A stretch of DNA of 64,000 nt, from contig NC_092810.1 of assembly GCF_040954645.1 (NCBI RefSeq), forward strand, positions 76,266,660 through 76,330,659. Reading direction: 5' to 3'. The stretch's first letter is position 1; each line of letters starts with the position of its first letter. The notes beneath the pieces are model-generated. The model saw only the letters and a program-made list of their open reading frames with translations. It had not been told where the DNA came from and did no database searches. The stretch comes from Diabrotica undecimpunctata. Lineage: Eukaryota > Arthropoda > Insecta > Coleoptera > Chrysomelidae. The position numbers and the translations under genes are program-made. Shown one piece after another: positions 9,010 to 57,134 of the stretch.

Positions 9010-10143
9010 TTGGTCTTCAACGACAAATATTACCTTCAAATTTTTGGGACACCTATGGGTTCCTCAATCTCTCCCATCCTAGTTAATTATGTACTGGATG
9101 ATTTAGTATCTGACCGTCTGGGTCTTTTAGATTTCCAAATCCCTTTTATTAAACGGTATGTTGATGACTTATTACTAGCCTTACCTCCAGACAAGTTTCA
9201 GGCCACCTTGTCTTTATTCAATGAGTTTGATCCTCATTTACAGTTCACTGTTGAACTTGAGGACTCCAACACAAATAGTATTCCCTTCTTAGACATGCGT
9301 GTCATTAGAATGGGAGATAACACCCTTACTACAAGTTGGTACAGGAAACCAATGGCCTCTAATAGGTTTCTCAACTACCATTCTTGTCATCCCTTTAAAT
9401 ACAAATTAAACCTTATTAAAGCTTTAAGCTGCAGGCTAAATAGACTGATACATCCGATTAATCGAAGGGAATCCTTTCAATTACTTAAAAATATTCTGAT
9501 TGAGAATTCCTATCCATCCTCCCTTATTAATAAATACCTTTTCGCTCAAAGCTATGGTTCTTCTTTAAATGATATACCCAATGGTGACCAACTTAGAATG
9601 ATATCAAATAATTCAATTAATAACACTGTTCTGCCTAATACTGTACTTGGGAATCCAACTACCCATTACTCCTCTTTACCTTATTTTCCTCAAGTTACTG
9701 AGAAACTCGTTAAACTGTACAAACATAATAACGTACCTGTTAAAATTGCTATTAAGAATGCTAAGACTGTCAGGAATTTGTTCTCTAAAACTAAAACACC
9801 TCTGTCCCTTCTGGAACAAGTGAATGTAATATATCATATACCTTGTGCTGAGTGTGACTCATGTTACATCGGTCAGACTGGGAGATCACTGAGAGGGCGT
9901 CTTACGACACACCGCAGTGATATCAATTTATCTAAGCATACTTGTGCTCTTGCCCAACATGCCATTAACACTAAGCATGAAGTAAACTTTAATGAAGTTA
10001 AAATTCTTGGCACTGAACGCAATCTCGTTAAAAGACATTTTTTAGAAATGTGTGCAATATTAAAACATCCTAATACTCTTAATAAGAGAACGGACATTAG
10101 TAATTTGAGCCAAATTTATCATGCATTAATTTTACAGAATTAG
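9010..10143 (+). pseudogene. Penelope-like RT (C-terminal half) plus GIY-YIG endonuclease
   Basis: 377 codons open without an ATG start; the reading frame simply enters from the pLTR junction, so the protein is 5'-truncated. GTPMGSSISPILVNYVLDDL (residues about 15-34) is RT motif B, and RYVDDLLLALP (about 49-59) holds the catalytic YVDD of motif C. After a linker, LPYFPQVTEKL (about 224) leads into the GIY-YIG endonuclease: VIYHIPCAECDSCYIGQTGR (about 275-294), then LRGRLTTHRSD and the catalytic-side ALAQHAINTKH. PLE endonucleases nick the target for target-primed reverse transcription. RT fingers and motif A are missing, so it cannot prime alone. No stop or frameshift interrupts what remains, which argues for recent insertion. 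Confidence 0.9.
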
Positions 10144-11900: not shown

Positions 11901-12437
11901 TCAGTCACAAGTCAATATAAAATTGTAAATTTTTCTAAGATTCTGGATCTCAGATCTTTTATTCAGATTCTTAATATCACTTTTGCTGATATGTACCATC
12001 TCTAAGAAAGTTCTCTTAAATTTATTTTTCTCTCTGGCTAATATTTTTACATTGTTGAAATCTATCTTATGGTCTAGATTGATAGTATGCTCTGCCAAAG
12101 CACAAGTAGGTTTGTTTAATCTACAGTCACTCTTATGAGAAATGATACGACTAGACAGATTCCTTCCAGTTTCACCAATGTACGTGGATGGACATTCGGT
12201 ACATTGAATGCAATAAACAACATCTGTAGTCTCTAAAGTAGTTAGGGGTTGTTTTATTTTACTATACAGCTGACGTATGGTTTTGATGTTCTTGTTAGCT
12301 ATTTTGATATTCTTAAATTCTTTGAAATTCTTAGTGAGTTCAACGGTTAGTTTCGGAATATATGGAAGGGCATAAAAAGTACACACTTGTTGGAGCAGAA
12401 TTATTTTGTGCTGAGGGCACTGATTGTGACATAACAT
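11901..12437 (-). pseudogene. Penelope-like GIY-YIG endonuclease fragment
   Basis: 178 codons on the minus strand, from an ATG at 12437, but this ATG is internal to the original ORF. LPYIPKLTVELTKNF (about residues 24-38) is the segment linking RT and nuclease in PLEs. VVYCIQCTECPSTYIGETGR (about 73-92) is the GIY-YIG core, with a CxxC-type pair before it, followed by RIISHKSD and TCALAEHTINLDHKIDF. The tail KNLNKRSEIQNLRKIYNFIL closes the domain as in PLE1. The RT is missing. No internal stops in this part. It is the same protein family as at 9010-10143 but clearly a different PLE lineage. Confidence 0.87.

Positions 12438-13360: not shown

Positions 13361-13414
<54 letters not shown>
13361..13414. 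repeat. (TA)n microsatellite
   Basis: About 26 TA units abutting the left LTR of Gypsy-A copy 1. Confidence 0.95.
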
Positions 13415-13420
<6 letters not shown>

Positions 13421-13770
13421 GAATTTATTAAAAGGTTCAATATTTATAACACTTACGGATTTAATTTATTTCTTTATTTATATTAACTTATCTGACAATA
13501 ATTTATTATATCCGTACGTAACAAATTCGCGAGCGCGGGTCTTGAGAATTAACTGTTCCTTCCAAATAAAGTTCCGTTATTATATACCAGTGCCGTTATC
13601 TCGAAAACTCTAAAACCTTCGATGGCGAAACGGTAAAGGCAAACTGGATTTCCCTCGCATCGGTTCTGGAAGGTCGCTCAGGTAAATCGAAGTCTCTCGT
13701 AAATTCTAAAACATATTAGAATAAAAACATGTTTACAGGTTAAAACTATGACTCATATTTTTACGTAACA
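13415..13770 (-). repeat. Gypsy-A copy 1 LTR (3' LTR of the element)
   Basis: 356 bases, TG at the plus-strand left end (TGTTGTGAA) and CA at the right end (CGTAACA). The last codons of the ORF overlap its inner edge. Confidence 0.9.
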
Positions 13771-16700
13771 TTGCCCCCCTCTCAAAAGATGGTTCCTCCT
13801 GGAACCTTGTCGGGACTAGAACCGGAACGGTATGCTGGTATCGGCAACTGGACCCTCTTTTACAACTCCCAGTTGTATAAAAATGACAAGGGACGGTTTT
13901 CTCTCCGCACCAGTAACTATGCGGATTGCAACAGACTAACACCTGGACTTCGGTGTCTTTAAAGATCTCTTCCACCATATTTCGGATAACCCTCCAATCT
14001 AATTGGCGGCACTCCAACTTTGGCATGGCTAACTTTTGCACGTCGGACTCCAGTACGTGCTCTCTCAATTGAAGTAAGGCTTCCCATACATCTCGGTAGG
14101 TAGGTTGGTCACGGGCAGTGTCTTTTGTTACCAGGTAGAAAAGGTAACGTGATGCATCTTGGAGTTTCAAGGTTTTACCGGGAGCTGGCACTTGGCATTG
14201 AAGTTCTGCAACTCGACCAAACTTCCTTCGAAAGACGGATGCCAACCCTGGTGCGTCTTTGATACTGGCCGGGATGGTAAGGGCCAGCGAGTAGTCATCG
14301 GGGAGCGCGAGTAGATCTTGCTTTTCTTCAGTGGTAACACCATGTCTCGCTTTACCGGTACCTCCATAGGCACCCATGAATTCCTCAAACGTGAGGTCAG
14401 ACACATCGTGGACTTGGTTTACTTCCACTTCTTCATCTACGTTGTGGTCACCTTCGAAAGACGCCAACCGGTTATGGTGTACTATCATCGGCTTTCCCCT
14501 CGGAATCTTGCTTATTCGGTAGATGACATCGTTGATCTTCTCCATAATGAGGTATGGACCTTCCCAAAACTGCTGCAATTTGGGAGAACAACCTTTTCGC
14601 TTCTTGGGATTATACAGCCATACTTTGTCGTTCTTCTTAAAGCAACCCTTTTCGGCTTGTGTATCGTACCGTTTCTTCATTCTGTCGCTAGCGATCTGAA
14701 GGTGGGAACGGACCAACTCATGTACATCGTCCATTCTTCTTCGTAATTCGATCACATAATCTTCACCTGCTACATCTTCTCCAGGTTTACATCCAAACTC
14801 GAGATCACAAGGTAGTCGCATTTCGCGTCCGAATAGGACTTTGGCTGGTGTCTGGCCTGTTGATTCGTTAACAGCAGATCTGTAGGCCATTGTGAAGAAC
14901 GGAAGGTATTGGTCCCAGTCTCGCTGATGATCGGACACCATCTTTGTCAAATACTTGCCAACTGTCCTATTCATTCGTTCTACCATACCATCCGATTGCG
15001 GATGATACGCGGTAGTTCTTGTTTTCTTCATGCCTAGTCTATCACATATTCCTTGGAATAGATCGCTTTCGAAGTTCCTGCCTTGGTCACTATGTATCTC
15101 CAAAGGCACTCCAAATCGGCTGATATATTCTTGGATCAACTTATCTGCAACGGTGGCGGCCTTCTGGTCGGGAAGTGCGTAAATCTCGACCCACTTAGTA
15201 AAGTAATCCATTACTACCAGCATGAACTTGCCTCCATTTTCACTTTCTGGAAATGGCCCAGCGATGTCCAAAGCTATTCTTTCAAACGGGCTTCCAACAT
15301 TATATTGTCTCATAGGAGCTCTCCTTTTTCGGTGAGGCCCGTTACTCGTAGCACAAATAGTACATTTCTTACACCAGTCTTTTACGTCGTCGGAACTGTT
15401 CATCCAATAAAACCGTTCCCGAATTCGCTGAAGGGTTTTCCTTACACCAAAATGCCCTCCCGATGGACTGTCGTGTAACTGACGAAGTACTTCGGCTATT
15501 CTGCTCTTTGGGATCACCAACTGTCTTCTCTTCTCTGAACCGTCATCATTTTCCAGGACTCGTTTAAGCAAGCCATCTTCGATGATAAATGAGTCCCACT
15601 GGGCCCAATACGTCTTAACTACTGAGCATAGGTTTGATATTTCCTGCCAAGGTGGTCGACGGTTTTCCTCTTTCCATTTTCGGATTTTTTGTATAACTGG
15701 ATCTCTCTCTTGTTCTTCCCTGATCTTAGTAGGCGTCCAGTCGTTGTTGACAATCGTCGTTCTTAGCACTGCTGCTTCCTTGGATTCCGTTTTGTTGCAG
15801 TGGGAACACTCTGCTGAGCATGGCCTTCTGGAAAGAGAATCAGCGTTTCTGTGGCTAACTCCGGCCCGGTGCTCAATCTTAAAATCGTATTCTTGGAGTC
15901 GTTCGATCCACCTGGCTATCTGACCCTCTGGATTCTTAAACTGCATCAACCACTTAAGGGCGGCATGGTCGGTTCGGATTAGAAACTTTCTGCCATAGAT
16001 GTATTGATAGAAGTGCTCTACTGATTTAACTATTGCTAGAAGTTCTCTTCTCGTGACGCAATAATTCCGCTCAGGTTTTGAAAGAACTTTACTAAAATAT
16101 CCGAGGACTCGTTCCTGTCCTCCTTGAATCTGAGACAGCACTCCTCCAATTCCCACATTACTTGCATCCGTATCTAAGATGAACTCTCCTTCTGGCAGTG
16201 GATACCCCAAAATTGGTGCTGTTATTAAATGCTTTTTCAACGTTTCAAAGGCATTTTGGCAGTCTATATCCCAGCGGTATTCTCTTGCTTCCTCTGTAAG
16301 TCGCGTTAATGGCTTAGCGATATCTGCAAACTTCTTAATAAACCTCCGGTAGTAAGTACATAGTCCAAGAAAACTTCTCACTTGATGTTTGTCAGTTGGT
16401 TTTGGCCATTCCTTAATGGAATCGATTTTTCCCTTATCCACGGCCACTCCTTCTTTACTGACTATATGACCCAGATAATTGACTTTACCTTGAAATAGCT
16501 GGCACTTCTTGGGGTTTAGCATCAATTGGGCAGCTTTAAGTCGATTAAAAACGTTTTCTAAATTCCTCAAATGATCTTCGAATGTCTCCCCCAAGACGAT
16601 TATGTCATCTAAATAAACCAGGCATGTTTTCCAAGATAACCCTCTCAACACATTTTCCATAAGCCTCTCAAATGTCGCAGGAGCATTACAAAGTCCAAAT

Positions 16701-19216
16701 GGCATAACGTTGAATTGCCACAATCCAGATCCTGTGGTGAAGGCTGTCTTTTCTTTATCGACTGGGTCCATTTCTACCTGCCAGTATCCAGACTTCAAAT
16801 CTAAAGTAGAAAACAATTTACTTCCAGCCAATGTGTCCAATGTGTCATCGATCCGAGGCAGAGGATAACTATCTTTCTTGGTAACGTTGTTCAGCAAACG
16901 GTAATCCACACAGAACCTCGTCGTTCCGTCTTTCTTCTTAACCAGGACCACCGGAGAGACCCATGGGCTCGTAGAAGGTTCTATCACCCCGTCTTTCTTC
17001 ATTTCCTGAACAATCGTTTCAGCTTCCTCTCTCTTCGCCTGTGGTAATCGTCGAGCTGTTTGACGAATTGGCTTAGCATTACCAGTATCAATTTTATGCT
17101 TAACAACGGTAGTTCTTCCCGTCTTTCCTCCTTTCGGTACGAAAATATCACGATACTGCCGCAGAAATTCCCTTAATTTCCTTTTCTCCATCTGATTTAG
17201 AGACTGTCCTGCAACTGCAACCATTTGGTCGAATTTGTCGTTGGAATTATCAGATGTTGTCGCCTGACGGATTATGGATGTCACAGGTACACAAGTTCCT
17301 ACTTTTGTCTCTTTCTTTATGGTCACTGGGTAGTCGTTGACATTGATGAGTCTCACAGGAATTTCCTTAGCCGAAGTCACCAATTCCTTTCCAATTATGA
17401 TTCCACGGCCAACCTCATCGTCGTGGTTCCAAGGCTCCATCATAACAGGTCTCCCTTCGTCCACAAATCCCTGTAGCCGCGCTACTATGATCGTTTCGCT
17501 TCTCGCAGACACGACTGTATCTTCTGTAATGGCTGCTTGCACAGTGTTGTCATTATGTGGATGGAGAAATACCTCCTCGTTGCCAACTTTGATTACCTTA
17601 TTCTTAAAATCCAATTGGAATCCATGCATATTCATTACGTCCATTCCTAATATAACATCCTCTTCGATGTCAGCAACTATAACAGTATGGACGAACTTTT
17701 CTGCTCCAATTCCCAATTGTACCTGGATTTCTCCATGAATGTTAGCATTTTCACCTGTAGCGGTCCGAAGTCGCAACCTCGTTGGTAACAGTTTCTTTCG
17801 GCTGTTTATAACTGTCGGGCGTATAATGGTTCTGGTCGCTCCGGTATCCACCAACAACGTATGTCTTTTACCATTTATTTCTCCATCTACATATACACTA
17901 TCTTCACGACACTTCAAAGAAGCTATTAGTATGAGAGGGTCTTTGGAAAAGTTCCGGGTCGAAGCTGCTCCCCTAAAGCCGACTCGTTCTGGTTTTTCTG
18001 ATGGTGAGTTCCTTGATTTTATAGTCTTCGTTTTCTTGCATGTAATGCTTTTTATCATATTAACGAGCTGGTCAAGTTTATCTTCATCTCCTTCCTCTTT
18101 TACAGTTCTAACTTTACTGTACCCGCCAGAGGCCTGCGTAGCTGACTCGTATTCGAGGGCGGCGGATAAGACATCAACCAGCGTCTTGTGACGAGCTAAT
18201 CGTAGTGTTCTCTGCATTTCATGATCACGAAGACCATCAATAAACGTTTGAACGGCCAATTTTTCCATCATGTCTTCGGGAGCTGTTGGATAAGCATATC
18301 GTACTAATCTGGCAATATCTACCTCATATTCTTGAAGAGCCTCATCTTTCTTCTGTCTACGATTTTTAAGCTGCGACTGATATACATGCTCCAAATGTTC
18401 GTGGCCATATCGCATATTTAACCTCTTCTTCAGTTGTTCGAAATCATCGGTCTCCTCTACGGCTATGGTCTGAAGCACATCTAAGGCATCTCCTCGAAGA
18501 GCGATAGTCAGGTTTACAGCCTTTTCTTTTTCAGACCATCCATTCGCTCTTGCGGCTGATTCGAACTGTTTCATGTAGTTGTTCCATGATGATTTTCCGT
18601 CGAAAGTTGGGACTTTAACATGAATAGAACCTCCACTTCCTTCAAATTTCGGCCGTGTCTCCAACTTACATTTCGTCTCGTCTTCTTTTATCTCCACTGT
18701 AATCGGATTGTTACCTCTCTCTGCTGTCCCTGTTTCCTCCATCTTCTTTTCCATCTCTTTCCATATCTTTTCTTCGAAGGCCAACATATCGGCAGCAACT
18801 TGGTTTTTTAACGAAGATATTCTATCGTCCAGGGCAGACATCTCAGAAGTGACTTTAGAGATTTCCGAAGAGATGTTAGCAGAGACTTTGCTTTCCAGCG
18901 AAGAAATCTCGTTAGAAACTTTGTCTTCCAACGAAGCGATGTCGCCGGAAACTTTGGCTACATCAGAAGAAACTTTCGAAATATCGTCAGAAACTTTGTT
19001 CTCTAATGATGCGATGTCACCAGAAATTTTCGAAATCGACGAGAGGACAGCATCATGTTTGTCTTCAAATATATAAGTCTCTGGATCTAGTCCTTCTTCT
19101 AGCAAAGCGTTCTTTAGTCGTTGGACTAACTCAGCCTTTTTTCCGGTAGAAGCTAATTCTCTGTCTTCAAGATGTCTTCTTAAATTAGTCACTGTCAGCT
19201 CACAAATCGTAGCCAT
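13733..19216 (-). CDS. Gag-Pol polyprotein with SAP motif, macrodomain and CCCH finger
   Basis: A single 1,827-codon ORF. I start at the ATG at 19216; two codons upstream are open but have no ATG. Order (residues): SAP-like motif 5-40; coiled-coil of SKVSGDI/SLENKVS repeats 53-168; Gag capsid-like 196-360; protease LLVDTGA (DTG 457-459); RT with FCVDYRLLN and YLDD (868-871); RNase H with DTDAS (about 1015); integrase HHCC (1248-1290) and D1317, D1377, E1413; GPY/F-like WEGPYLI (1551). Then a macrodomain (about 1634-1766) closest in wording to TARG1/OARD1, with FRRKFGR, YLVTK (K1698), LAMPK, and a CCCH finger C1777-x7-C-x5-C-x3-H1795. No Gag zinc knuckle. All replication motifs are intact. Role of the tail is inferred: ADP-ribose handling and RNA binding. 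Confidence 0.93.
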   Translation of the reverse strand: MATICELTVTNLRRHLEDRELASTGKKAELVQRLKNALLEEGLDPETYIFEDKHDAVLSSISKISGDIASLENKVSDDISKVSSDVAKVSGDIASLEDKVSNEISSLESKVSANISSEISKVTSEMSALDDRISSLKNQVAADMLAFEEKIWKEMEKKMEETGTAERGNNPITVEIKEDETKCKLETRPKFEGSGGSIHVKVPTFDGKSSWNNYMKQFESAARANGWSEKEKAVNLTIALRGDALDVLQTIAVEETDDFEQLKKRLNMRYGHEHLEHVYQSQLKNRRQKKDEALQEYEVDIARLVRYAYPTAPEDMMEKLAVQTFIDGLRDHEMQRTLRLARHKTLVDVLSAALEYESATQASGGYSKVRTVKEEGDEDKLDQLVNMIKSITCKKTKTIKSRNSPSEKPERVGFRGAASTRNFSKDPLILIASLKCREDSVYVDGEINGKRHTLLVDTGATRTIIRPTVINSRKKLLPTRLRLRTATGENANIHGEIQVQLGIGAEKFVHTVIVADIEEDVILGMDVMNMHGFQLDFKNKVIKVGNEEVFLHPHNDNTVQAAITEDTVVSARSETIIVARLQGFVDEGRPVMMEPWNHDDEVGRGIIIGKELVTSAKEIPVRLINVNDYPVTIKKETKVGTCVPVTSIIRQATTSDNSNDKFDQMVAVAGQSLNQMEKRKLREFLRQYRDIFVPKGGKTGRTTVVKHKIDTGNAKPIRQTARRLPQAKREEAETIVQEMKKDGVIEPSTSPWVSPVVLVKKKDGTTRFCVDYRLLNNVTKKDSYPLPRIDDTLDTLAGSKLFSTLDLKSGYWQVEMDPVDKEKTAFTTGSGLWQFNVMPFGLCNAPATFERLMENVLRGLSWKTCLVYLDDIIVLGETFEDHLRNLENVFNRLKAAQLMLNPKKCQLFQGKVNYLGHIVSKEGVAVDKGKIDSIKEWPKPTDKHQVRSFLGLCTYYRRFIKKFADIAKPLTRLTEEAREYRWDIDCQNAFETLKKHLITAPILGYPLPEGEFILDTDASNVGIGGVLSQIQGGQERVLGYFSKVLSKPERNYCVTRRELLAIVKSVEHFYQYIYGRKFLIRTDHAALKWLMQFKNPEGQIARWIERLQEYDFKIEHRAGVSHRNADSLSRRPCSAECSHCNKTESKEAAVLRTTIVNNDWTPTKIREEQERDPVIQKIRKWKEENRRPPWQEISNLCSVVKTYWAQWDSFIIEDGLLKRVLENDDGSEKRRQLVIPKSRIAEVLRQLHDSPSGGHFGVRKTLQRIRERFYWMNSSDDVKDWCKKCTICATSNGPHRKRRAPMRQYNVGSPFERIALDIAGPFPESENGGKFMLVVMDYFTKWVEIYALPDQKAATVADKLIQEYISRFGVPLEIHSDQGRNFESDLFQGICDRLGMKKTRTTAYHPQSDGMVERMNRTVGKYLTKMVSDHQRDWDQYLPFFTMAYRSAVNESTGQTPAKVLFGREMRLPCDLEFGCKPGEDVAGEDYVIELRRRMDDVHELVRSHLQIASDRMKKRYDTQAEKGCFKKNDKVWLYNPKKRKGCSPKLQQFWEGPYLIMEKINDVIYRISKIPRGKPMIVHHNRLASFEGDHNVDEEVEVNQVHDVSDLTFEEFMGAYGGTGKARHGVTTEEKQDLLALPDDYSLALTIPASIKDAPGLASVFRRKFGRVAELQCQVPAPGKTLKLQDASRYLFYLVTKDTARDQPTYRDVWEALLQLREHVLESDVQKLAMPKLECRQLDWRVIRNMVEEIFKDTEVQVLVCCNPHSYWCGEKTVPCHFYTTGSCKRGSSCRYQHTVPVLVPTRFQEEPSFERGAMLRKNMSHSFNL
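13771..13784 (-). promoter_or_regulatory. Polypurine tract of Gypsy-A copy 1
   Basis: Minus strand GAGAGGGGGGCAA directly before the TGTTACG start of the 3' LTR. It primes plus-strand DNA synthesis in LTR elements. The same tract precedes the LTR in copy 2, and a close variant in Gypsy-B. Confidence 0.8.
13919..14320 (-). other. TARG1-like macrodomain region of Gypsy-A Pol
   Basis: Segment of the polyprotein after the GPY/F module. It follows the macrodomain order of OARD1/TARG1: SLA, G-x-A-SVFRRKFGRVAEL, a DASRYLFYLVTK strand, PTYRDVWEALLQLREH helix, VQKLAMPK, LDWRVIRNMVEEIF and a closing hydrophobic strand. The lysine matching human TARG1 K84 is kept (K1698). The loop that holds D125 in TARG1 is two residues shorter here (ECRQLDW), so the catalytic aspartate is not clearly present. 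The glycine-rich loop reads DAPGLA. Binding without hydrolysis is therefore possible. Confidence 0.8.
19094..19204 (-). other. SAP-like motif at the Gag N-terminus
   Basis: ELTVTNLRRHLEDRELASTG followed by KKAELVQRLKNAL fits the SAP pattern (two amphipathic helices, a G-x-K-x-EL-x-RL core). SAP motifs usually bind AT-rich DNA. Placement at the Gag N-terminus would suit chromatin targeting of the particle or integration complex; that is inference. Confidence 0.75.
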
Positions 19217-19279
19217 TTTCACAATTTATTTTATATTCACTTGTAATTTATTTTCGCAATTTATCTAAGTATTCCACTG

Positions 19280-19290
19280 TTCTGACACCA
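19280..19290 (-). promoter_or_regulatory. Primer-binding site of Gypsy-A copy 1
   Basis: Minus strand TGGTGTCAGAA, two bases inside the 5' LTR. It complements a tRNA 3' end of TTCTGACACCA, which matches animal leucine tRNAs as I know them. Confidence 0.7.
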
Positions 19291-19292
19291 TT

Positions 19293-19627
19293 TGTTGTGA
19301 ATTTATTAAAACGTTCAATATTTATAACACTTACGGATTTAATTTATTTCTTTATTTATATTAACTTATCTGACAATAATTTATTATATCCGTACGTAAC
19401 AAATTCGCGAGCGCGGGTCTTGAGAATTAACTGTCCCTTCCAAATAAAGTTCCGTTATTATATACCAGTGCCGTTATCTCGAAAACTCTAAAACCTTCGA
19501 TGGCGAAACGGTAAAGGCAAACTGGATTTCCCTCGCATCGGTTCTGGAAGGTCGCTCAGGTAAATCGAAGTCTCTCGTAAATTCTAAAACATATTAGAAT
19601 AAAAACATGTTTACAGGTTAAAACTAT
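19293..19627 (-). repeat. Gypsy-A copy 1 LTR (5' LTR of the element), outer end lost
   Basis: Matches 13415-13747 almost perfectly but stops at AAAACTA, where the other LTR continues for 23 more bases to CGTAACA. (TA)n and the DD41D element follow directly. Confidence 0.88.
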
Positions 19628-19640
19628 ATATATATATATA

Positions 19641-22129
19641 CAGGGTAAGTCATGAGGAACTTTACATACTTCTACCATATGTAGAGTCCCTCAGGGAGCA
19701 TATCATGTGGCCACTAAAAAATGTCAACTCCTCTTCTTTATTAGTTAACAGGGTGATTTGTGTAATTGACCGTTTATTTCATTTTACTGTAGTGTTTATA
19801 CGGCTCAATTGATTTTTTTAATTTTTGCATGATACAGTACACTACTATCAAGCATTCGACTGGTATTAGCTAAACTAAAAAATTCCAGGACTGGCTTTGG
19901 AAAAATTAATTTAGGGATTCGTATTAAATATTACACCCTGTATATATTTTTTTTTAAAATGCAATAAGTGATTTTTAAACTACATAAATAGCCAATGAAA
20001 ACGACATATGCGACAATGTTGTCGCACTTTTATTAAATTTTTAGTGAACGATCAAATCTTACCAAAAATAGAACAACCATAATGAAATATCAAATTATAA
20101 GGTAATTAATTTAAACAAATGTTATAAATTTCAAACATTTTAATTGAAATGATAAACTGAGTCACTGCACAACAAAAAACAGTAACTACTAACAATAACG
20201 AAGAACAATTTAAAAAAAACTAAGAATATGTACATAGTTATGATAAACCCATAAATTAGAACTGGAAAAGATACAATAATGGTAACAAAATAAAAATAAT
20301 TCAAAATAGATTTTCGAAATGGAACCCTGCAGCCTGTACACATTTTTGTTGCTGAATTGTTAATTGACGTATTGAATTACGGATACTCTGGGGATTGTTT
20401 CTAATAGTATTACAACAATGTATAATTCTATCAATTAATTGTTGTCGGTTATTAATATTCACTGCGTAAACTAGTTGCTTCAATCGTCCCCAAATATGGT
20501 AATCAACGGGATTGAAATCAGGGGATCTTGAAGGCCACGAAATAGGACCTGCACGTCCTATCCACCTGTTGCCATAAACATTATTGAGATGTTGTCTCAC
20601 TGCCAGTAAAAAGTGTGGGGGTGCCCCATCATGCTGAAAATACATCCCTCGGATAGGGATTTTCTTCTGCCCACACATGTGAATTTCGTGAATTATTTAT
20701 CCCGTCTCTGGTAAATTGGGCTTCATCTGTAAATAGTGTCCTGTATAGCGTTGGTCGATTATTGTTAATCCATCTAAAAAATTCCAACCTATCGATCTCA
20801 TCTCCAGCATGTAGTCGCTGAACCATTTGAATGTGATATGGGTATAGATTATTTTTTTGTAAGACTCTATTTACTTTTGATTGAGTAACATTGAGTTCTC
20901 GACTTACTTGTCTAGTGCTTATTGTAGGGTTCATAGTAACGGCGTCCATAATGTCATCTTCCTGCGCTTCATCTACATGTCGCTCTGTTGTTCCACTAGG
21001 AAAAGTGCCATTTTCTCGCAAATAATTAAAAACTGACCCAAATGTTGGATGACTGGGAGTTCGACGATTAGGAAATCTCCTGCGATATTCTCTACTAGCA
21101 GCCCTACCATTCCCATTACAGAATCCATAAAGAAATATTATGTCTGCATATTCTGTGGTCGAAAACTGATGTGGCATTTTGAACGAAAGTAACAAAAGCT
21201 CTACCAAAACTAACACAATGTACTTAACGTAGATATGACAGAAGAAATATGTATTCTTGTACACATAAATAACAATTGATAATGACAATAATGACAATGG
21301 GTATAAAATATCAAGAAACGTCAAACGGTCAACGCCAACCTTCATTTTAAACTTTTTTAGATTTATTTTTATTTAGTACAGTTGATGCAATGTATTATTA
21401 TTTGACATAAAATTTTAATCATTTACAATCAACAAAAACTAACACATACAAGAGGTTTGACTTTTTAATCAATTTAATTTATTATTTATCGAAAATAATG
21501 CCCCAATACGATCTATGAGTAAAAATTTAAAATTGAAAAACATTTGATTCTATCGTAGAGATAATACAAAGTGACAGTAAAGATGTTAATTTTCTACGTA
21601 TTAGATTATGTTGTAGGAACTCATTTTAATTAAAATGTTTGAAATTTATAACATTTGTTTAAATTAATACCTTATAATTTGATACTTCATTATGGTTGTT
21701 CTATTTTTGGTAAGATTTGATCGTTCACTAAAAATTTAATAAAAGTGCGACAACATTGTCGCATATGTCGTTTTCATTGGCTATTTATGTAGTTTGAAAA
21801 TCACTTATTGCATTTTAAAAAAATTTATACAGGGTGTAATATTTAATACGAATCCCTTAATTAATTTTTCCAAAGCCAGTCCTGGAATTTTTTAGTTTAG
21901 CTAATACCAGTCGAATGCTTGATAGTAGTGTACTGTATCATGCAAAAATTAAAAAAATAAAATGAGCCGTATAAACACTACAGTAAAATGAAATAAATGG
22001 TCAATTACACAAATCACCCTGTTAATTAATAAAGAAGAGGAGTTGACATTTTTTAGTGGCCACATGATATGCTCCCTGAGGGACTCTACATATGGTAGAA
22101 GTATGTAAAGTTCCTCATGACTCACCCTG
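19641..22129 (-). mobile_element. DD41D Tc1/mariner-like transposon 1, long TIRs
   Basis: About 2.49 kb between CAGGGT at 19641 and ACCCTG at 22129, flanked by TA repeats as expected for TA target duplication. Terminal inverted repeats are about 510 bases (19641-20157 and 21622-22129) with few mismatches. The transposase lies on the minus strand and lacks its middle portion. The long TIRs without other coding capacity suggest the element can still be mobilised in trans. Confidence 0.88.
20301..21177 (-). pseudogene. DD41D mariner-type transposase, internally deleted
   Basis: Starts at the ATG at 21177 (MPHQFSTTEYADIIFLYGFC); 56 upstream codons are open but belong to the TIR side. The first part has the helix-turn-helix segment common to this insect transposase group (REYRRRFPNRRTPSHPTF, then an HTH with TISTRQVSRELNVTQSKV) and the first catalytic aspartate in LFTDEAQFTRDG. 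After HVWAEENPYP the frame changes and resumes at MYFQHDGAPPHF, with the second aspartate, and SPDFNPVD, with the third, 41 residues later. About 80 codons of the RNase H fold between are missing. Inactive. Confidence 0.88.
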
Positions 22130-22159: not shown

Positions 22160-24173
22160 CAGGGTGGCGCATCGAAAACGAAACAGATGCATTTACTGGC
22201 AGATGATTCCTTTAAAAAAAAAACGCTTGGACCCGTCGATTTTGTTATCGAGGGGGAAACAAAATTGGCATAAAATCACATTAACATTTGCAGCCCCCTA
22301 AGCGGGGGTGGCACCATCCCTAAAATCTTAAATGGAAAGGGGGGTCGAATGATCCATCATTTAAAAGGTCTTTCAACTCCCTTTACAATGATGTAAAATT
22401 CATGTACTTCAATTCAGTAGTTTTGGAGATTTATTGATTTAAAGTTTAAATACATCATCGTAAGAGGAGATCAATACATAGCAGCAAAGTTGTTAAATAA
22501 TAAAGAATGAACTGACCTGTCAGCCGAGTAAATGTTGAAAATGACCACCATTACTTTCCATGCAATAATAAAGATTTTGCTGAAAACGTTGCCGGACATT
22601 TTGCAATATTTGAGGAGTAATTTGATGGCACTCATTCACAATTCTTTGTCGTAAATCTTTTAAGGATGTTGGCTGAGTAGCATAGATTTTGCTTTTTAAG
22701 TAACCCCACAAAAAGAAATCCAAAGGTGATAAATCTGGCGATCTTGGGGGCCATTCAACGGCACCTCTTCTACCAATCCATTGACCTGGAAAGGTCTGAT
22801 CTAAATAATGCCGAACTCTTAATGCGTAATGTGGTGGGGCACCATCCTGTTGGAACATCAACATATTCTCAACGTATCGACCATCATTCTGATTTTCAAT
22901 TATATCTGTTAGCGCAGGATCTATGGCATTTTGCAGTAATTCCAAATACATTTCACCAGTCAAATTTCCAGGTAAGAAAAAAGGACCAACCAAATGATCG
23001 CAAAAAATGCCAGCCCAACATTTAATTTTTGTGGCTGCTGTGTGTGTACCTCATGGTAAATTCTGGGATTAGAGTCCGACCAATATCGACAATTATGACG
23101 ATTTACTTCGCCATTTAAAAAAAAGGAACATTCGTCGGAAAAGCAAATGTTAAATAAAAATTGTTCATCGTTTGTAATTCGTTCACTCATAACTTCACAA
23201 AATTCTAATCGCTTATCAAAATCGTCTTCATTAAGTTCTTGTACAAGGTGAATTTTATACGGATGAAAATTATGGGCCTTTAGAATCCGTTGGATAGTAC
23301 GTCGACTAACACCACACGAAGTTTGCAATTCGCGGGTACTTAATGTAGGATCTACAATAACTTGCCCTAAAACCCCCACTTCTGTTGCTTCGTTCCTTAT
23401 AGGATTTTCAATATTACGTTTTTTATTGGCGACTGATCCAGTTTCCCGAAATTTAGCTACAAGTTCTAGAACATATTTTCGGTGCACATTATTGTTCTCA
23501 TGTCGCTCATTAAAAATTTGTGCTGTTCTATTAGCGCACTGATTATTTCCGAAAAATATTTCAATAATTTCAACCCTTTCTGCCGTGGAATATACCATGG
23601 TTAATTTATGTATAAAGCAATAAATGATATTTTAACAACAAAGATTGGTCAAATCAATCGCAAACTAATGTACTATTTCCTATTTAAAATAAGTACGTGG
23701 CATTCTCTACTTATCTTTCTTCAAGAAACAACTTTTTTTGTCACAAAGGACACTTCAATTGCTATTTTTATTATTAATAAACCATGGGCGTAGTAAATAA
23801 AAGCATTTACTTATCAAGAAAATGCTTTTACTCAAATTTCTTCTGAAAGAAGTACAAACTAATTTGATGTACCTATTAAAGTCTACTTTAAACTTTAAAT
23901 CAATAAATCTCCAAAACTACTGAATTGAATACATGAATTTTACATCATTATAAAGGGAGTTGAAGGACCTTTCAAATAATGGATCATTCGACCCCCCTTT
24001 TCATTTAAGATTTTAGGGATGATGCCACCCCCGCTTAAGGGGCTGCAAATGTTAAAGTGATTTTATGCCAATTTTGTGTCCCCCTCGAAAACAAAATCGA
24101 CGGGTCCGAGCGTTTTTTCAAAAAAGGAATCATCTGCCAGTAAATGCCTCTGTTTCGTTTTCGGTGCGCCACA

Positions 24174-26130: not shown

Positions 26131-26700
26131 TTAGATCTGAGCGTCCTGATCAGCAACTCTAAATGTAGGCCCAGGATGGCGGAATCTACAAGACTCTCCA
26201 GCTCTGCATGAACCCCTCAGAAAGAAATAACAGTCCACTGTCTTTGAAGGACACGATCTCTTCGGATTAATGCAACACACAGTAATTCTTACGCCGGTTT
26301 CTCGGAAGATCACTTCAAGCATGCTTCGGACAATCTTCCAATCCAGATTATCTAGTGCATGGCCTATCTTGGGTAAGGCCAAATTCTTGATGTCATAATT
26401 ACACACGATTTTCTTCAAATTAGTTAGAGCACGCCATATATCCTCGTAGCTTGCCCTGTCTGTATACGACTTCCTGGTCACCATATACAGCAAAGATCAA
26501 GGGCCATCTTCTAATCTCAGTACTCTTCCAACTTTAGGCTGCTGATTTTTTCAACTCGTCTAAACGACCGAACTTCTTATAAAATACAGATGAGATTCCT
26601 TTAGTCATCTCAAGATCTTAGGCAACACAGTGAGCTAGAGAGACGTTATGCGGAACACTAAAAAGATCCTGCTGAACTTCTGTCGTCACGCCGAATCTAG
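26131..26700 (-). pseudogene. Gypsy-B macrodomain plus CCCH finger
   Basis: Minus strand, one stop and one frameshift in the N-terminal part, open from about 26493. RFGVTTEVQQDLFSVP leads in, exactly where Gypsy-A has GVTTEEKQDL. Then SLAHCVA, stop, DLEMTKGISSVFYKKFGRLD, and VLRLEDGP, YMVTRKSY, YEDIWRALTNL, LALPKIGHALDNLDW, RSMLEVIFRETGVRITV. This is closer to TARG1/OARD1 than the Gypsy-A domain: the SLAHC start and the ALD aspartate (TARG1 D125 position) are kept, while the K84 position reads R followed by K. The finger is C-x7-C-x5-C-x3-H (CYFFLRGSC...CRFRH). Confidence 0.85.
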
Positions 26701-26758
26701 CACTCTTAAAGCTTGGTCGCCGGTCATCTTTGATCTGATGTTGAAGGGTTCGTGCTTC

Positions 26759-27873
26759 TTATGTTTCATTTGAGCCAGCATAAGGTGCAAGACGATTTAT
26801 GTGAACTAGTTTTGGTTTACCTTTCGGCAACTTCTTAATTCGGTATATTACGTCATTTATTCTCTTTTTAATTTCGTACGGACCTTCCCATTGTCTTTGC
26901 AATTTAGGAGACAAGCCTCGACGACGTTGTGGATTATAAAGCCAAACAAGATCACCTACTTCATAGCTTTCATTCTTGCATTGAGAATCATATTGATCTT
27001 TCACTCTGTCACTGGCTAACTGGATATGTTGTCGGGCAAGTTCATGAATGTTGTTCATTCTTAACTTCAGGCGGTCGATATAATCTTCGCTTGCAACATG
27101 TTCTTCGGAAGGTCTGCAGCCAAACTCTAGGTTGCAGGGCAAACGAACTTCACGACCTAACATCAGGCAAGTTGGGGTCTGGCCTGTAGTTTCATTCATG
27201 GCCGAGCGGTAGGCTATTAGGAATAAATGAATGTGCTGGTCCCAATCTCTTTGATGTTCTGATACAACATTGGACAGGTGTTTACCCATCGTTCGGTTCA
27301 CCCCATCTCGGTCATTTCATCTGATTGAGGATGCAGGGGTGTCGTTCTGGTCTTATTGACACCAATCAATTTACAAACGTTTTGGAAAACGGTTGACTCG
27401 AAGTTTCGCCCTTGGTCGGAGTGGATCTCCAAGTATCCACTCCTTTGGTGTTAAAAATCGGCTAAAGAATTCTTTAACAAGTACCTCTGCAACGGTAGCA
27501 GCTTCTTGATTTGGTATCGCATACGCCTCAGTCCATTTCGTAAAATAATCCATGGCTACCAGGATGTATTTATTTCCAGCATTCGTCTCTGGAAGTGACC
27601 ATTACTGGTTGCACACAGTTCACATTTCCGGCACCATCTTCTTACATCATCTTTACAATTCACCCAATAGAACCGTTCTCGAACCTTTTGCAAAGTCGTC
27701 GTAATACCAAAGTGTCCACCTGATGCCCCGTCATGAAAATGACGCAATACTTCTGACACTTTACTTTTAGGTACAATCAACTCAAGCTTAGTTTCTGTAC
27801 CATCATCGTTCACAAAGGTTCTATACAGAAGATCATCTTTTAGCACTAGGTAATTCCATTGGCCCAGTAACAT
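26759..27873 (-). pseudogene. Gypsy-B integrase and GPY/F remnant
   Basis: From right to left (5' to 3' of the element): IVPKSKVSEVLRHFHDGASG through CRKCELCATSNG is the HHCC zinc-binding domain. A deletion then removes the first catalytic aspartate. MDYFTKWTEAYAIP follows, a frameshift disrupts the second aspartate region near 27420, and the third part begins with MNRTMGKHLSNVVSEHQRDW next to the catalytic glutamate position. The open stretch 26759-27301 continues to the GPY/F module (WEGPYEIKKRINDVIYRIKK) and ends in HINRLAPYAG. It parallels Gypsy-A residue by residue but at clearly lower identity. Confidence 0.85.
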
Positions 27874-28238
27874 TTGACTTCTGGACTACATGCTCTAATG
27901 TTTTGCCAAGAGGGTTTTTCACTTCGACGCACCCAATCCAATACTCTTTTTATACATGGATCATCTGCTTGAGGGTCTTGTAGCTGTTGAGGCTGCCATT
28001 GATCATTAATGACGGTGGTTCGCCTAACGAGGCAAAGTCGTTCGTCTAATCTAAGACAGTGATTACAATTTGCACTGCATTGCCGTCTTGACCGAGCCTC
28101 TGCATTTGAATGACTTTTTCCAGCCCAGTGTTCGATCTGTTCTAGCTTTCTAACTGTTGGTTTATTTTCTTGCAATTTACGACGAATGTGACCTACGTCG
28201 CCACCATTCCAACATCTGGTTTCGCGTCTCTTCGGCAT
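27846..28238 (-). pseudogene. Gypsy-B zinc knuckle fused to RNase H end by deletion
   Basis: 130 codons. The start (RRETRCWNGGDVGHIRRKL) is a damaged CCHC zinc knuckle from the end of Gag. It runs straight into EQIEHWAGKSHSNAEARSRR, the last part of the RNase H domain, and then the spacer before the integrase. In Gypsy-A these two points lie over 700 codons apart, so protease, RT and most of RNase H were removed by one deletion at about 28130. The join happens to be in frame. Confidence 0.82.
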
Positions 28239-28268
28239 TATGTTACGAACTACTTTTCGTACGATTTC

Positions 28269-29429
28269 CTACAGACGTTTATCGTTTCGTTCGTTGCTCT
28301 CTTCAGAGGTTCGTACTCGATAGCTCCGTGAAGCTTGACTAGCTGTTTCGTGCTCCAAGGCAATGGCAAGCGCTTTATCTAAAACTTTCGGTCTTGCTAG
28401 TCGTACAGCTTTCTGTAGTTCACTGTCACTCAACCCATTGACGAAGGTATCTACAGCAATTATTTCCAATATATTGTCTAGTGCCTCTGGATAAGCCAAC
28501 AGCGCTATACGAGCAAGATCTGCTTTAAATTCTTGCAAACTCTCACTTGCTCATTGAATTCCACTTCTTATTTGTACTTTGTAGACTTGTTGTAGATGGG
28601 CATCTCCGTAACGTTTGTCTAATCGAGTGAACAAGGTCTGGTAACATTTTTCTTGCCCCTTAGGAATTGATCTTAGGATATTCGCAGCATCACCTCATAA
28701 AGCAGCAGTCAAGGAAACAGCCTTTTCTTGTTCTGTCCAATGATTGGCTGTCGCAATAGCTTCAAATTATCTAAGATATATGGACCAAGAGGACTTTCCA
28801 TCAAATGGTGGCAATTTGTATCTCATATGATGTGTCGTTTCGTCTCTAGGTGATTCTTATTTCACTATTGCATCTAAGGCTACTGTTTTAACTGGTGGTA
28901 GCACTTTTATATTGGATATCATGCTCTCTAATTGTTTGATCTTCTGTTCTACGTGGTTTACATTTTTATGTATCTGATTGAATGTTTTAGAGACTACTTC
29001 AAATTTCTCATTGTTCTGAGTACATACTTCGTCGAATCTTCTAGAAACCTTTTCGAGTTTCTCGTCGTTTTGTCTAGCTACTTCTTTAATAATTTGTAAA
29101 GTCTCGTCGAATCTTCTAGATACATTTTCGAATGTTTCATCGAATCTTTTGGAAATGTTCTCTAATTTATCATCATTTTTTCTAGAAGATTCTTCACTCA
29201 TTTGCGAGAAATTTTCAAATTTCTTATCATTTTTTCTAGAACTCTCTTCGATCTTAATTAAAACTGCTTCTTCTGCTGATTGAAAATGGAATGTCTCTGG
29301 GTCATCTCAATTCTTGTTAAGGACATTCTTCAATCGTTCTTGGAGGATCTTCTTGGACCCGCTGCAGTCTTCATAGCGTTCTTCTAGTTGCTCACGCAAC
29401 TGTTTTACTGAAAGTTGTACTAGCAGCAT
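28269..29429 (-). pseudogene. Gypsy-B Gag remnant with SAP-like motif and coiled-coil
   Basis: The ATG at 29429 gives MLLVQLSVKQLREQLEERYE, a SAP-like start, followed by GSKKILQERLKNVL and a stop. A coiled-coil of RRFDE/NDEKLE heptads (28857-29201) takes the place of the SKVSGDI repeats of Gypsy-A. The capsid part (28269-28850) has stops but keeps LQEFKADLARIALLAYPEAL and LARPKVLDKALAIALEHETA. Unlike Gypsy-A, a zinc knuckle follows. The conserved plan with unrelated coiled-coil sequence suggests the heptad region evolves fast. Confidence 0.8.
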
Positions 29430-32495: not shown

Positions 32496-32739
32496 AACAC
32501 TAGTATACACAATAAACTGCACCTTGCAACTGAAGTACCTACTTTTAGTGAACTGTTAAGAATTTTGAATACGCCACTTGGACCTTCCTATATACAAAAT
32601 GGAAAAACCCACTATCACATTTTCTGTGGAATAAGTTTAGAAGGTAATTATCTAGTCAATTACTGTCGTAGATTCCTGGAATTAAAGAATTAAATGTTTG
32701 ATTGTTGAAACCCTTACTTCGTGGAATGCACTTATTTCA

Positions 32740-38862: not shown

Positions 38863-39259
38863 TGTAGTGACTTTATTTAACTGCTATGTCTTTATTTAAT
38901 TTATAATGTCTTTATATCAATTTATTTAACGAATAATACATAATTTATATAGGCGAACGTAACAATTAAAATCGCGAGCGCGGGTCTTCAGGTATTAACT
39001 AACTCCCTTTAATTAAAGCCCGTTATTATAAGCTCCGTTAAGCTCCGTTATTATATATGAAATCCTGTTATTCGAGAACAGCGGCGATCTCGCATCGAAG
39101 TAACCAGAAGCTCAGACCGGTCTCATTCGGCCTACCTGACCTCTAGTCGGATGATTCACCATAATTTGGGTCTAGATCCTTCGCCGAAATTTCTACAAGA
39201 AAACAGAATTAGTCATCATATATTTACAGTTATTTTAGGCCATGATATTTATCGTAACA
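38863..39259 (-). repeat. Gypsy-A copy 2 LTR (3' LTR)
   Basis: TGTAGTGAC to CGTAACA, 397 bases. Compared with the other LTR it lacks about 45 bases near 38910 and has a duplicated AAGCTCCGTT near 39030. Confidence 0.88.
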
Positions 39260-40112
39260 TTGCCCCCCTCTTAAAAGATGGTTCCTCCTGGAACCTTGTC
39301 GGGACTGGAACCGGAACTGTATGCTGGTATCGGCAACTGGACCCTCTTTTACAACTTCCAGTTGTATAAAAATGACAAGGGACGGTTTTCTCTCCGCACC
39401 AGTAACTATGCGGATTGCAACAGACTAACACCTGGACTTCGGTGTCTTTAAAGATCTCCTCCACCATATTTCGGATAACCCTCCAATCTAATTGGCGGCA
39501 CTCCAACTTTGGCATGGCTAACTTTTGCACGTCGGACTCTAGTACGTGCTCTCTCAATTGAAGTAAGGCTTCCCATACATCTCGGTAGGTAGGTTGGACA
39601 CGGGCAGTGTCTTTTGTTACCAGGTAGAAAAGGTAACGTGATGCATCTTGGAGTTTCAGGGTTTTACCGGGAGCTGGCACTTGGCATTGAAGTTCTGCAA
39701 CTCGACCAAACTTCCTTCGAAAGACGGATGCTAACCCTAGCGCGTCTTTGATACTGGCCGGGATGGTAAGGGCCAGCGAGTAGTCATCGGGGAGCGCGAG
39801 TAGATCCTGCTTTTCTTCAGTGGTAACACCATGTCTTGCTTTACCGGTACCTCCATAGGCACCCATGAATTCCTCAAACGTGAGGCCAGACACATCTTGG
39901 ACTTGGTTTACTTCCACTTCTTCATCTACGTCGTGGTCACCTTCGAAAGACGCCAGTCGGTTATGGTGTACTATCATCGGCTTTCCCCTCGCAATCTTGC
40001 TTATTCGGTAGATGACATCGTTGATCTTCTCCATAATTAAGTATGGGCCTTCCCAAAACTGCTGCAATTTGGGAGAACAACCTTTTCGTTTCTTGGGATT
40101 ATACAGCCATAC
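39249..40112 (-). pseudogene. Gypsy-A copy 2: GPY/F, macrodomain and CCCH finger
   Basis: The 3' end of the split Gag-Pol, open throughout. It enters from the Gypsy-C junction at 40112 and runs through WEGPYLIMEKINDVIYRISK, the linker with FEEFMGAYGGTGKARHGVTT, the macrodomain and the finger (CHFYTTGSC, then CRYQH) to a stop just inside the LTR. Relative to copy 1 the macrodomain has only a few replacements (for example APGLA to ALGLA and ARDQ to ARVQ) and the finger none. The lysine of YLVTK is kept. Cut off from its own 5' part by 12 kb. Confidence 0.9.
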
Positions 40113-42322: not shown

Positions 42323-42323
42323 G

Positions 42324-42341
42324 TGGCGTAGTCCAACGTGG
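42324..42341 (+). promoter_or_regulatory. Primer-binding site region of Gypsy-C
   Basis: TGGCGTAGTCCAACGTGG starts one base after the LTR. A similar string, TAGCGCCCAAAGTGG, lies about 36 bases upstream inside the LTR. Confidence 0.55.
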
Positions 42342-52420: not shown

Positions 52421-52424
52421 ATAC

Positions 52425-55400
52425 GTTGTCGTTCTTCTTAAAGCAACCCTTTTCGGCTTGTGTATCGTACCGTTTCTTCATTCGGTCGCTAGCGATCTGA
52501 AGGTGGGAACGGACCAACCCATGTACATCGTCCATTCTTCTTCGTAATTCGATCACATAATCTTCACCTGCTACATCTTCTCCAGGTCGACACCCAAACT
52601 CTAGATCACAAGGTAGTCGCATTTCGCGTCCGAATAGGACTCTGGCTGGTGTCTGGCCTGTTGATTCGTTAACAGCAGATCTGTAGGCCATTGTGAAGAA
52701 CGAAAGGTATTGGTCCCAGTCTCGCTGATGATCGGACACCATCTTTGTCAAATACTTGCCAATTGTCCTATTCATTCGTTCTACCATACCATCCGATTGC
52801 GGATGATACGTGGTAGTTCTTGTTTTCTTCATGCCTAGTCTATCACATATTCCTTGGAATAGATCGCTTTCGAAGTTCCTGCCTTGGTCACTATAGATCT
52901 CCAAAGGCACTCCAAATCGACTGATATATTCTTGGATCAACTTATCTGCAACGGTGGCGGCCTTCTGGTCTGGAAGTGCGTAAATCTCGACCCACTTAGT
53001 GAAGTAATCCATTACTACCAGCATGTACTTGCCTCCATTTTCACTTTCTGGAAATGGCCCAGCGATGTCCAAAGCTATTCTTTCAAACGGGCTTCCAACA
53101 TTATATTGTCTCATAGGAGCTCTCCCTTTTCGGTAAGGCCCGTTACTCGTAGCACAAATAGTACATTTCTTACACCAGTCTTTTACGTCGTCGGAACTGT
53201 TCATCCAATAAAACCGTTCCCGAATTCGCTGAAGTGTTTTCTTTACACCAAAATGCCCTCCTGATGGACTGTCATGTAACCGACGAAGTACTTCGGCTAT
53301 TCTGCTCTTTGGAATCACCAAGTGTCTTTTCTTCTCTGAACCGTCATCATTTTCCAGAACTCGTTTGAGCAAGCCATCTTCCATGATAAATGAGTCCCAC
53401 TGGGCCGAATACGTCTTAACTACTGAGCATAGGTTTGATATTTCCTGCCAAGGTGGTCGACGGTTTTCCTATTTCCATTTTCGGATTTTCTGTATAACTG
53501 GATCTCTCTCTTGTTCTTCTCTTATCTTAGTAGGCGTCCAGTCGTCGTTGACCATCGTTGTTCTTAGCACTGCTGCTTCCTTGGATTCCGTTTTGTAGCA
53601 GTGGGAACACTCTGCTGAACATGGCCTTCTGGAAAGAGAATCAGCGTTTCTGTGGCTAACTCCGGCCCGGTGCTCAATCTTAAAATCGTATTCTTGGAGT
53701 CGTTCGATCCACCTGGCTATCCGACCCTCTGGATTCTTAAACTGCATCAACCACTTAAGGGCGGCATGGTCGGTTCGGATTAGAAACTTTCTGCCATAGA
53801 GGTATTGATAGAAGTGCTCTACTGATTTCACTACTGCTCGAAGTTCTCTTCTCGTGACACAATAATTCCGCTCAGGTTTTGAAAGAACTTTACTAAAATA
53901 TCCGAGGACTCGTTCCTGTCCTCCTTGAATCTGAGACAGCACTCCTCCAATTCCCACATTACTTGCATCCGTATCTAAGATGAACTCTCCTTCTGGCAGT
54001 GGATACCCTAAAATTGGTGCTGTTATTAAATGCTTTTTCAACGTCTCAAAGGCATTTTGGCAGTCTGTATCCCAGCGGTAATCTCTTGCTTCCTCCGTAA
54101 GTCGCGTTAATGGCTTAGCGATATCTGCAAACTTCTTAATAAACCTCCGGTAGTAAGTACATAGTCCAAGAAAACTTCTCACTTGATGTTTGTCAGTTGG
54201 TTTTGGCCATTCCTTAATGGAATCGATTTTTCCCTTATCCACGGCCACTCCTTCTTTACTGACTATATGACCCAGATAATTGACTCTACCTTGAAATATC
54301 TGGCACTTCTTGGGGTTTAGCATCAATTGGGCAGCTTTAAGTCGATTAAAAACGTTTTCTAAATTCCTCAAATGATCTTCAAATGTCTCCCCCAAGACGA
54401 TTATATCATCTAAATAAACCAGGCATGTTTTCCAAGATAACCCTCTCAACACATTTTCCATAAGCCTCTCAAATGTCGCAGGAGCATTACAGAGTCCAAA
54501 TGGCATAACGTTGAATTGCCACAATCCAGATCCTGTGGTGAAGGCTGCCTTTTCTTTATCTACTGGGTCCATATCTACCTGCCAGTATCCAGACTTCAAA
54601 TCCAAAGTAGAAAACAATTTACTTCCAGCCAATGTGTCCAATGTGTCATCGATCCGAGGCAGAGGATAACTATCTTTCTTGGTAACGTTGTTCAGCAAAC
54701 GGTAATCCACACAGAACCTCGTCGTTCCGTCTTTCTTCTTAACCAGGACCACCGGAGAGACCCATGGGCTCGTAGAAGGTTCTATCACCCCGTCTTTCTT
54801 CATTTCCTGAACAATCGTTTCAGCTTCCTCTCTTTACGCCTGTGGTAATCGTCGAGCTGTTTGACGAATTGGCTTAGCATTACCAGTATCAATTTTATGC
54901 TTAACAACGGTAGTTCTTCCCGTCTTTCCTCCTTTCGGTACGAAAATATCACGATACTGCCGAAGAAATTCCCTTAATTTCCTTTTCTCAATCTGATTCA
55001 GAGACTGTCCTGCAACTGCAACCATTTGGTCGAATTTGTCGTTGGAATTATCAGATGTTGTCGCCTGACAGATTATGGATGTCACAGGTACACAAGTTCC
55101 TACTTTTGTCCCTTTCTTTATGGTCACTGGGTAGTCGTTGACATTGATAAGTCTCACAGGAATTTCCTTAGCCGAAGTCACCAATTCTTTTCCAATTATG
55201 ATTCCACGGCCAACCTCATCGTCGTGGTTCCAAGGCTCCATCATAACAGGTCTCCCTTCGTCCACCATTCCCTGTAGCCGCGCTACTATGATCGTTTCGC
55301 TTCTCGCAGGCACGACTGTATCTTCTGTAATGGCTGCTTGCACAGTGTTGTCATTATGTGGATGGAGAAATACCTCCTCGTTGCCAACTTTGATTACCTT

Positions 55401-57070
55401 ATTCTTAAAATCCAATTGGAATCCATGCATATTCATTACGTCCATTCCTAATATAACATCCTCTTCGATGTCAGCAACTATAACAGTATGGACAAACTTT
55501 TCTGCTCCAATTCCCAATTGTACCTGGATTTCTCCATGAATGTTGGCGTTTTCACCTGTAGCGGTTCGAAGTCGCAACCTCGTTGGTAACAGTTTCTTAC
55601 GGCTGTTTATAACTGTCGGGCGTATAATGGTTCTGGTCGCTCCGGTATCCACCAACAACGTATGCCTTCTACCATCTATTTCTCCATCTACATATACACT
55701 ATCTTCACGACATTTCAAAGAGGCTATTAGTATAAGAGGGTCTTTGGAAAAGTTCCGGGTCGAAGCTGCTCCCCTAAAGCCGACTAGTTCTGGTTTTCCT
55801 GATGGTGAGTTTCTCGATTTTATAGTCTTCGTTTTCTTGCATGTAATACTTTTCATCATATTAACGAGCTGGTCAAGTTTATCTTCATCTTCTTCCTCTT
55901 TTACAGTCCTAACTTTACTGTACCCGCCAGAGGCCTGCGTAGCTGACTCGTATTCGAGGGCGGCGGATAAGACATCAACCAGCGTCTTGTGACGAGCTAA
56001 TCGTAGTGTTCTCCGCATTTCATAATCACGAAGACCATCAATAAACGTTTGAACTGCCAATTTTTCCATCATGTCTTCGGGAGCTGTTGGATAAGCATAT
56101 CGTACTAATCTGGCAATATCTACCTCATAATCTTGAAGAGCCTCATCTTTCTTTTGTCTACGATTTTTAAGCTGCGACTGATATACATGCTCCAAATGTT
56201 CGTGGCCATATCGCATATTTAACCTCTTCTTGAGTTGTTCGAAATCATCGGTCTCCTCTACGGCTATGGTCTGAAGCACATCTAAGGCATCTCCTCGAAG
56301 AGCGATAGTCAGGTTTACCGCCTTTTCTTTTTCAGACCATCCATTTGGTCTTGCGGCTGATTCGAACTGTTTCATGTAGTTGTTCCATGACGATTTTCCA
56401 TCGAAAGTTGGGACTTTCACATGGACAGAACCTCCACTTCCTTCAAATTTCGGCCGTGTTTCCAACTTAAATTTCGTCTCGTCTTCTTTTGTCTCTACTC
56501 TAATTGGATTGTTTCCTCTCTCTGCTGTCCCTGTTTCCTCAAGCTTCTTTTCCATCTCTTTCCATATCTTTTCTTCGAAGGCCAACATATCGGCAGCAAC
56601 TTGGTTTTTTAACGAAGACACTCTATCGTCAAGAGCAGACATCTCAGAAGTGACTTTAGAGATGTTAGCAGAATCTTTGCTTTCCAGAGAAGAAATCTCG
56701 TTAGAAACTTTGTTTTCTAATGAAGCGATGTCGCGGATACTTTGTTCTCCAATGATGCGATGTCACCAGAAACTTTGTTCTCTAATGATGCGATGTCACC
56801 AGAAACTTTTGAAATATCGCCAGAAACTTTCGAAATATCGCCAGAAACTTTGTTCTCTAATGATGCGATGTCACCAGAAACTTTTGAAATCGACGAGAGG
56901 ACAGCATCATGTTTATCTTCAAATATATAAGTCTCTGGATCTAGTCCTTCTTCTAGCAAAGCGTTCTTTAGTCGTTGGACTAACTCAGCCTTTTTTCCGG
57001 TAAAAGCTAATTCTCTGTCTTCGAGATGTCTTCTTAAATTAGTCACTGTGAGCTCATAAATCGTAGTCAT
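52425..57070 (-). pseudogene. Gypsy-A copy 2: Gag-Pol 5' part
   Basis: From the ATG at 57070 (MTTIYELTVTNLRRHLEDRE) to the Gypsy-C insertion. SAP-like motif, coiled-coil, capsid, DTGA protease, RT with YLDD, RNase H and integrase all align with copy 1. Damage: a frameshift in the coiled-coil repeats near 56710-56745, a TAA in the LPQA-REEAE stretch at about 54834 and a stop in the WK-ENRR stretch at about 53467. The coiled-coil differs from copy 1 in repeat number (extra SKVSGDI and SLENKVSGDI units). Integrase is open from about 53384 to the insertion point. It continues at 40112. Confidence 0.9.
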
Positions 57071-57134
57071 TTTCACAATTTATTTTATATCCACATGTAA
57101 TTTATTTTCGCAATTTATCTTATGTATTCCACTA

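Follow-up and report, generated by a model that had tools for sequence, protein, structure and literature searches.

Analysis of a 64,000-nt stretch of the genome of the chrysomelid beetle Diabrotica undecimpunctata (contig NC_092810.1, positions 76,266,660 to 76,330,659; hereafter the window) confirmed that a Ty3/gypsy retrotransposon, copy A, carries a TARG1-type macrodomain and a CCCH zinc finger fused to the end of its Pol polyprotein. This architecture (13733..14320) had been proposed in a first-pass annotation made from the nucleotide sequence, and both domains indeed belonged to a single Gag-Pol open reading frame (ORF) of 1829 codons including the stop (13733..19222). Copies A and B and element C, with the features located in them below, are on the reverse strand.

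A macrodomain and a CCCH finger behind the integrase

The C-terminal tail of copy A consisted of 235 residues (13736..14440) placed after a GPY/F-type module. Its residues ~31-171 (13928..14350) formed a macrodomain, for which TARG1/OARD1 (C6orf130, terminal ADP-ribose protein glycohydrolase) was the closest relative both by sequence and by predicted fold, in accordance with the annotation. A single-sequence fold of the tail was dropped for its mean predicted local distance difference test (pLDDT) score of 41.6 in favor of a model built from an alignment, and the macrodomain fold was present in the latter. The general Macro family PF01661, a match to which had been named as support, was found neither in copy A at E up to 1 nor in the copy B tail at E up to 0.1, and scored 14.1 bits, under the cut-off of 22, in the piece of element C. 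Two other identities of the tail were rejected, TARG1 being much closer than either: DarG, with a partial match of 29.9 bits against a cut-off of 250, and a phosphatase, with a weak match (E 7.9e-4, no stated cut-off).

The CCCH finger (C-x7-C-x5-C-x3-H, 13832..13888), also called in the first pass, was located by both Pfam and its motif, with zf-CCCH (PF00642) scores of 29, 29.1 and 28.7 bits in A, B and C, respectively, above the cut-off of 20.5. Its best solved relative was CPSF4 (CPSF30; E 2.3e-5 for A and 3.7e-9 for C), which belongs to the machinery recognizing the poly(A) signal, and the finger most likely binds RNA.

Copy A (13414..19627) is bounded by long terminal repeats (LTRs), the 3' LTR at 13772-13414 and the 5' LTR at 19627-19292 without ~23 nt at its outer end, with AT repeats at both edges. 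The pair differed in only 2 of 336 aligned positions, and the insertion is therefore probably young. The ORF contained, from N- to C-terminus, SAP, Retrotrans_gag, aspartic protease, reverse transcriptase (RT), RNase H, H2C2 integrase, rve and Integrase_p58_C; the LTRs and the order Gag, protease, RT, RNase H, integrase place the element within Ty3/gypsy (Metaviridae). The DTG and YLDD motifs were found, and the integrase had three segments bearing the acidic residues. No CCHC knuckle was present in Gag. At its N-terminus Gag had a SAP domain (PF02037, E 2.6e-7; 18823-19222), which appears unusual for this protein, followed by a stretch weakly matching coiled-coil families.

Related copies and selection on the tail

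The tail might have been peculiar to a single copy, but a tblastn search with it across the window gave three places in total, belonging to three of the four Ty3/gypsy elements (A, B and C) and to two families; element D gave no match in this search. The open frame of the copy B tail (39252..39929) was 97.3% identical to A over 226 residues. It is separated from the remainder of copy B, which runs from Gag to integrase (52422..57076), by the nested Ty3/gypsy element D (40113-52421), which has long direct repeats and encodes protease, RT and integrase, its Gag match being under the cut-off; D split the integrase of B apparently with a GTAT target duplication. Copy B is dead, since there is a stop within its RT piece and its Gag matches fall in two frames. 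Most coding pieces of A and B were 95-97% alike, the N-terminal part of Gag 89%, and the LTR of A (13414-13772) could be aligned only partly with those at 38894-39260 and 57195-57563 (139 and 175 columns at 73-74%); such unevenness makes an exchange of LTRs through recombination likely.

Element C occupied ~26.1-29.9 kb, and its terminal repeats were short and 85% alike. With an identity to A of 34% in Gag and 44-51% in the integrase, it is by sequence a family separate from A/B. Its tail (26161..26701), interrupted by stops and a frame change, comprised the same macrodomain and CCCH finger, and a single open piece of it matched TARG1 (E ~4e-10), zf-CCCH (1.3e-6) and CPSF4 (3.7e-9). Remains of its Gag and integrase lay at 26774..29423; the RT/RNase H piece was matched in its final part only.

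Between A and B the tail showed purifying selection. The two copies differed there by 10 synonymous and 6 nonsynonymous changes (dN/dS 0.17; one-sided binomial p 7e-4 against an expectation of 77% nonsynonymous, from site counts and equal rates), with 9 synonymous and only 2 nonsynonymous changes in tail residues 31-204. The remaining four pieces gave dN/dS values of 0.14, 0.34, 0.23 and 0.17, therefore the tail behaves as the rest of Gag-Pol. In comparisons with element C the synonymous sites were saturated; dN was 0.45 and 0.56 for the tail, 0.39 and 0.47 for the integrase and 0.67 for Gag, which are upper bounds for living lineages, because C has decayed since its death. LTR elements sometimes carry captured host pieces, and the tail could likewise be a chance fusion, a piece of a host transcript merely not lost yet; both this selection and the identical tail architecture in two families with integrases 44-51% alike argue against such a passenger, making it very improbable. 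The sharing of the tail by two related families in the window suggests instead that it is useful to the element.

In a tree of 20 macrodomain rows, which had long branches and in which element C filled only 49% of the columns, A, B and C clustered with human OARD1 at a support of 87/86, below the starred level, and several phage rows outscored human OARD1 against the element C piece. We infer that the tail may have been captured from an animal TARG1. Scans of IMG/VR with the tail, integrase and RT alignments and of prokaryote genomes with the tail found no relative of the element, in collections where few animal elements are expected and from which records close to the genome of the window were possibly excluded. 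The best match of the tail among the viral predicted structures of BFVD was VP8 of Kadipiro virus (A0A8E0KJF2, E 7e-15, 31% identity), a double-stranded RNA virus; VP8 is thus a possible candidate for a TARG1-like macrodomain in such a virus, as judged from the predicted structure.

The window also contained element remains with GIY-YIG-like ends (9010-10143, 11901-12437), presumably resembling Penelope-like elements, and remains of DNA transposons with Tc3-type helix-turn-helix, DUF4817 or DDE_3 domains (20629-21345, 22960-23598, 31155-32522, 58467-59093).

Active-site residues and possible role of the tail

The catalytic residues of TARG1 are Lys84 and Asp125, the latter in the GCGLD loop. 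Tail Lys106, within LVTKDTA (14114..14134), aligned with Lys84 and was a lysine in both A and B, while in both copies the loop was shortened (KLECRQLDW, 13994..14020) and had no aspartate aligned to the catalytic one, so the first-pass statement of a kept lysine and a shortened aspartate loop was right. Among 15 relatives from viral contigs (out of 19 found), 50 columns were conserved at 70% or more, and copy A retained 26 of them. In the GCGLD loop of A the first Gly (conserved in 15/15 relatives) and the Asp (14/15) were changed or lost, the second Gly (15/15) and the Leu (14/15) were deleted, and the Cys (13/15) was retained. The first loop had changes or losses at His (14/15), Cys (15/15), Ser (13/15) and Asp (13/15), and so had GAG at its Gly (14/15) and Ala (13/15); the HCIS.D and GAG signatures are missing from A/B. 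Element C, a broken copy, had Arg at the lysine position, but kept Leu and Asp at the GLD position and LAHC in its first loop. Considering the losses in A and the residues retained in C, it is probable that the active site was fuller in the common ancestor and that the A/B macrodomain has become a pseudo-enzyme still under selection.

With moderate confidence we propose that the tail represents a capture at the level of the lineage, serving in A/B as a non-hydrolytic docking or reader module together with an RNA-binding finger. A Ty3/gypsy lineage would have gained the macrodomain and the finger at the end of Pol, behind the integrase, before the two families split. The A/B macrodomain, no longer a hydrolase, may then act as a folded module on the integrase, docking to residual ADP-ribose, binding of which is possible, or to a protein, and may help to select chromatin for integration or shelter the complex. 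The finger would bind the element's own RNA, which may matter because Gag of copy A has no CCHC knuckle. A narrower version, in which the captured TARG1 became a reader of ADP-ribose or PARylated chromatin steering integration to PARP-active sites, for example DNA breaks, while the CCCH finger keeps hold of the element RNA, appears rather unlikely.

An eraser, active now or in the past, which would oppose PARP-based restriction by stripping ADP-ribose from proteins of the element or the host, is consistent with the Asp and LAHC kept in C, with the lysine of copy A and an Asp nearby, with the existence of PARP-linked retroelement restriction, as described for ZAP/PARP13, a CCCH protein that restricts L1 (PMC4441479), and with the eraser role proposed for macrodomains of RNA-virus polyproteins (PMC9503650). 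Yet A/B are under selection although the aligned Asp and two residues of the loop are missing, as are the HCIS.D and GAG signatures, and C, though a dead copy, has Arg for the lysine. The removal of ADP-ribose considered in the first pass was thus unsupported for A/B, where the Asp and several conserved ligand-loop positions were replaced, and we regard an eraser as unlikely. Its action against PARP-linked silencing is a conjecture. ADP-ribosylation has a known connection with retroelement control, KAP1 being mono-ADP-ribosylated by SIRT6 during L1 silencing (PMC4695847). A docking or reader module fits better, because the fold was kept while the catalytic loop was shortened.

Equally doubtful is that the CPSF30-like finger is the working part of the tail, possibly directed to A/U-rich or poly(A)-signal sequences of the element RNA, with the macrodomain as a scaffold or a surface binding poly(ADP-ribose) or RNA. 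The finger occurs in all three copies, is closest to CPSF4 among solved structures and accompanies a Gag without a knuckle in A; still, a likeness across 25-33 residues cannot fix its specificity, the macrodomain is likewise conserved between A and B, and Gag of C also had a CCHC-like motif. The latter, a degenerate remnant with 2 of 4 ligands (28214-28173), also weakens the view of the finger as a simple replacement of a Gag knuckle lost in the common ancestor.

Several points weigh against the docking or reader module. The loop losses that count against hydrolysis count likewise against ADP-ribose binding; the gap in the shortened loop of A was placed, with some uncertainty, by the aligner, and three residues past the aligned position tail residue 148 is an Asp, which could in principle substitute. 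The finger was modelled poorly (pLDDT ~31-35), the tail is represented by only three copies, and the comparison of A with B comprises 16 changes. The CCHC-like remnant in Gag of C counts here as well, and the tail might have passed between the families by recombination. Its persistence on the integrase after proteolysis, chromatin targeting and the binding of ligand and RNA are proposals.

Relation to known systems

An extra domain at the integrase C-terminus resembles the arrangement in chromoviruses, Ty3/gypsy elements whose chromodomain is described as guiding target choice (PMC3605345). Here its place is taken by the macrodomain and the CCCH finger, and no chromo family was among the 8 Pfam matches of the copy A tail at E up to 1. 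Macro domains are also reported from another group of retroelements, epsilon-like endogenous retroviruses in ray-finned fish (PMC4977317, with reference to Basta et al. 2009), but there they are additional ORFs of vertebrate retroviruses, in contrast to a TARG1-type Pol fusion with a CCCH finger in Ty3/gypsy. Macrodomains of the same fold inside viral polyproteins, such as those of alphavirus nsP3 and coronavirus nsp3, are well known (PMC9503650, in the main text of which 'retrotransposon', 'OARD1' and 'TARG1' do not occur); they are distant (11-14% identity for the alphavirus rows) and belong to a different replication system. The TARG1-like proteins of phages (Bacillus phage G gp437) are standalone ORFs, and DarG, an antitoxin by its family name, is not fused to Pol either; on this side the GCGLD loop is kept (13-15 of 15 rows per column), whereas A/B differ from TARG1/OARD1 itself in the fusion to Pol and in having lost several signatures of the ligand loops together with the aligned Asp. 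Among the papers listed in literature searches that covered neither subscription papers nor repeat databases, no title or abstract opening named a macrodomain or a tail of this kind in the Pol of a Ty3/gypsy element.

The tail of these elements represents an ADP-ribose-type domain in the Pol of an LTR retrotransposon, and it shows signs of selection despite the shortening of its catalytic loop. It offers a testable link between ADP-ribosylation and the integration or silencing of retrotransposons. Next to the chromodomain, it may also be a second example of a host-type domain that was recruited to the position behind the integrase.
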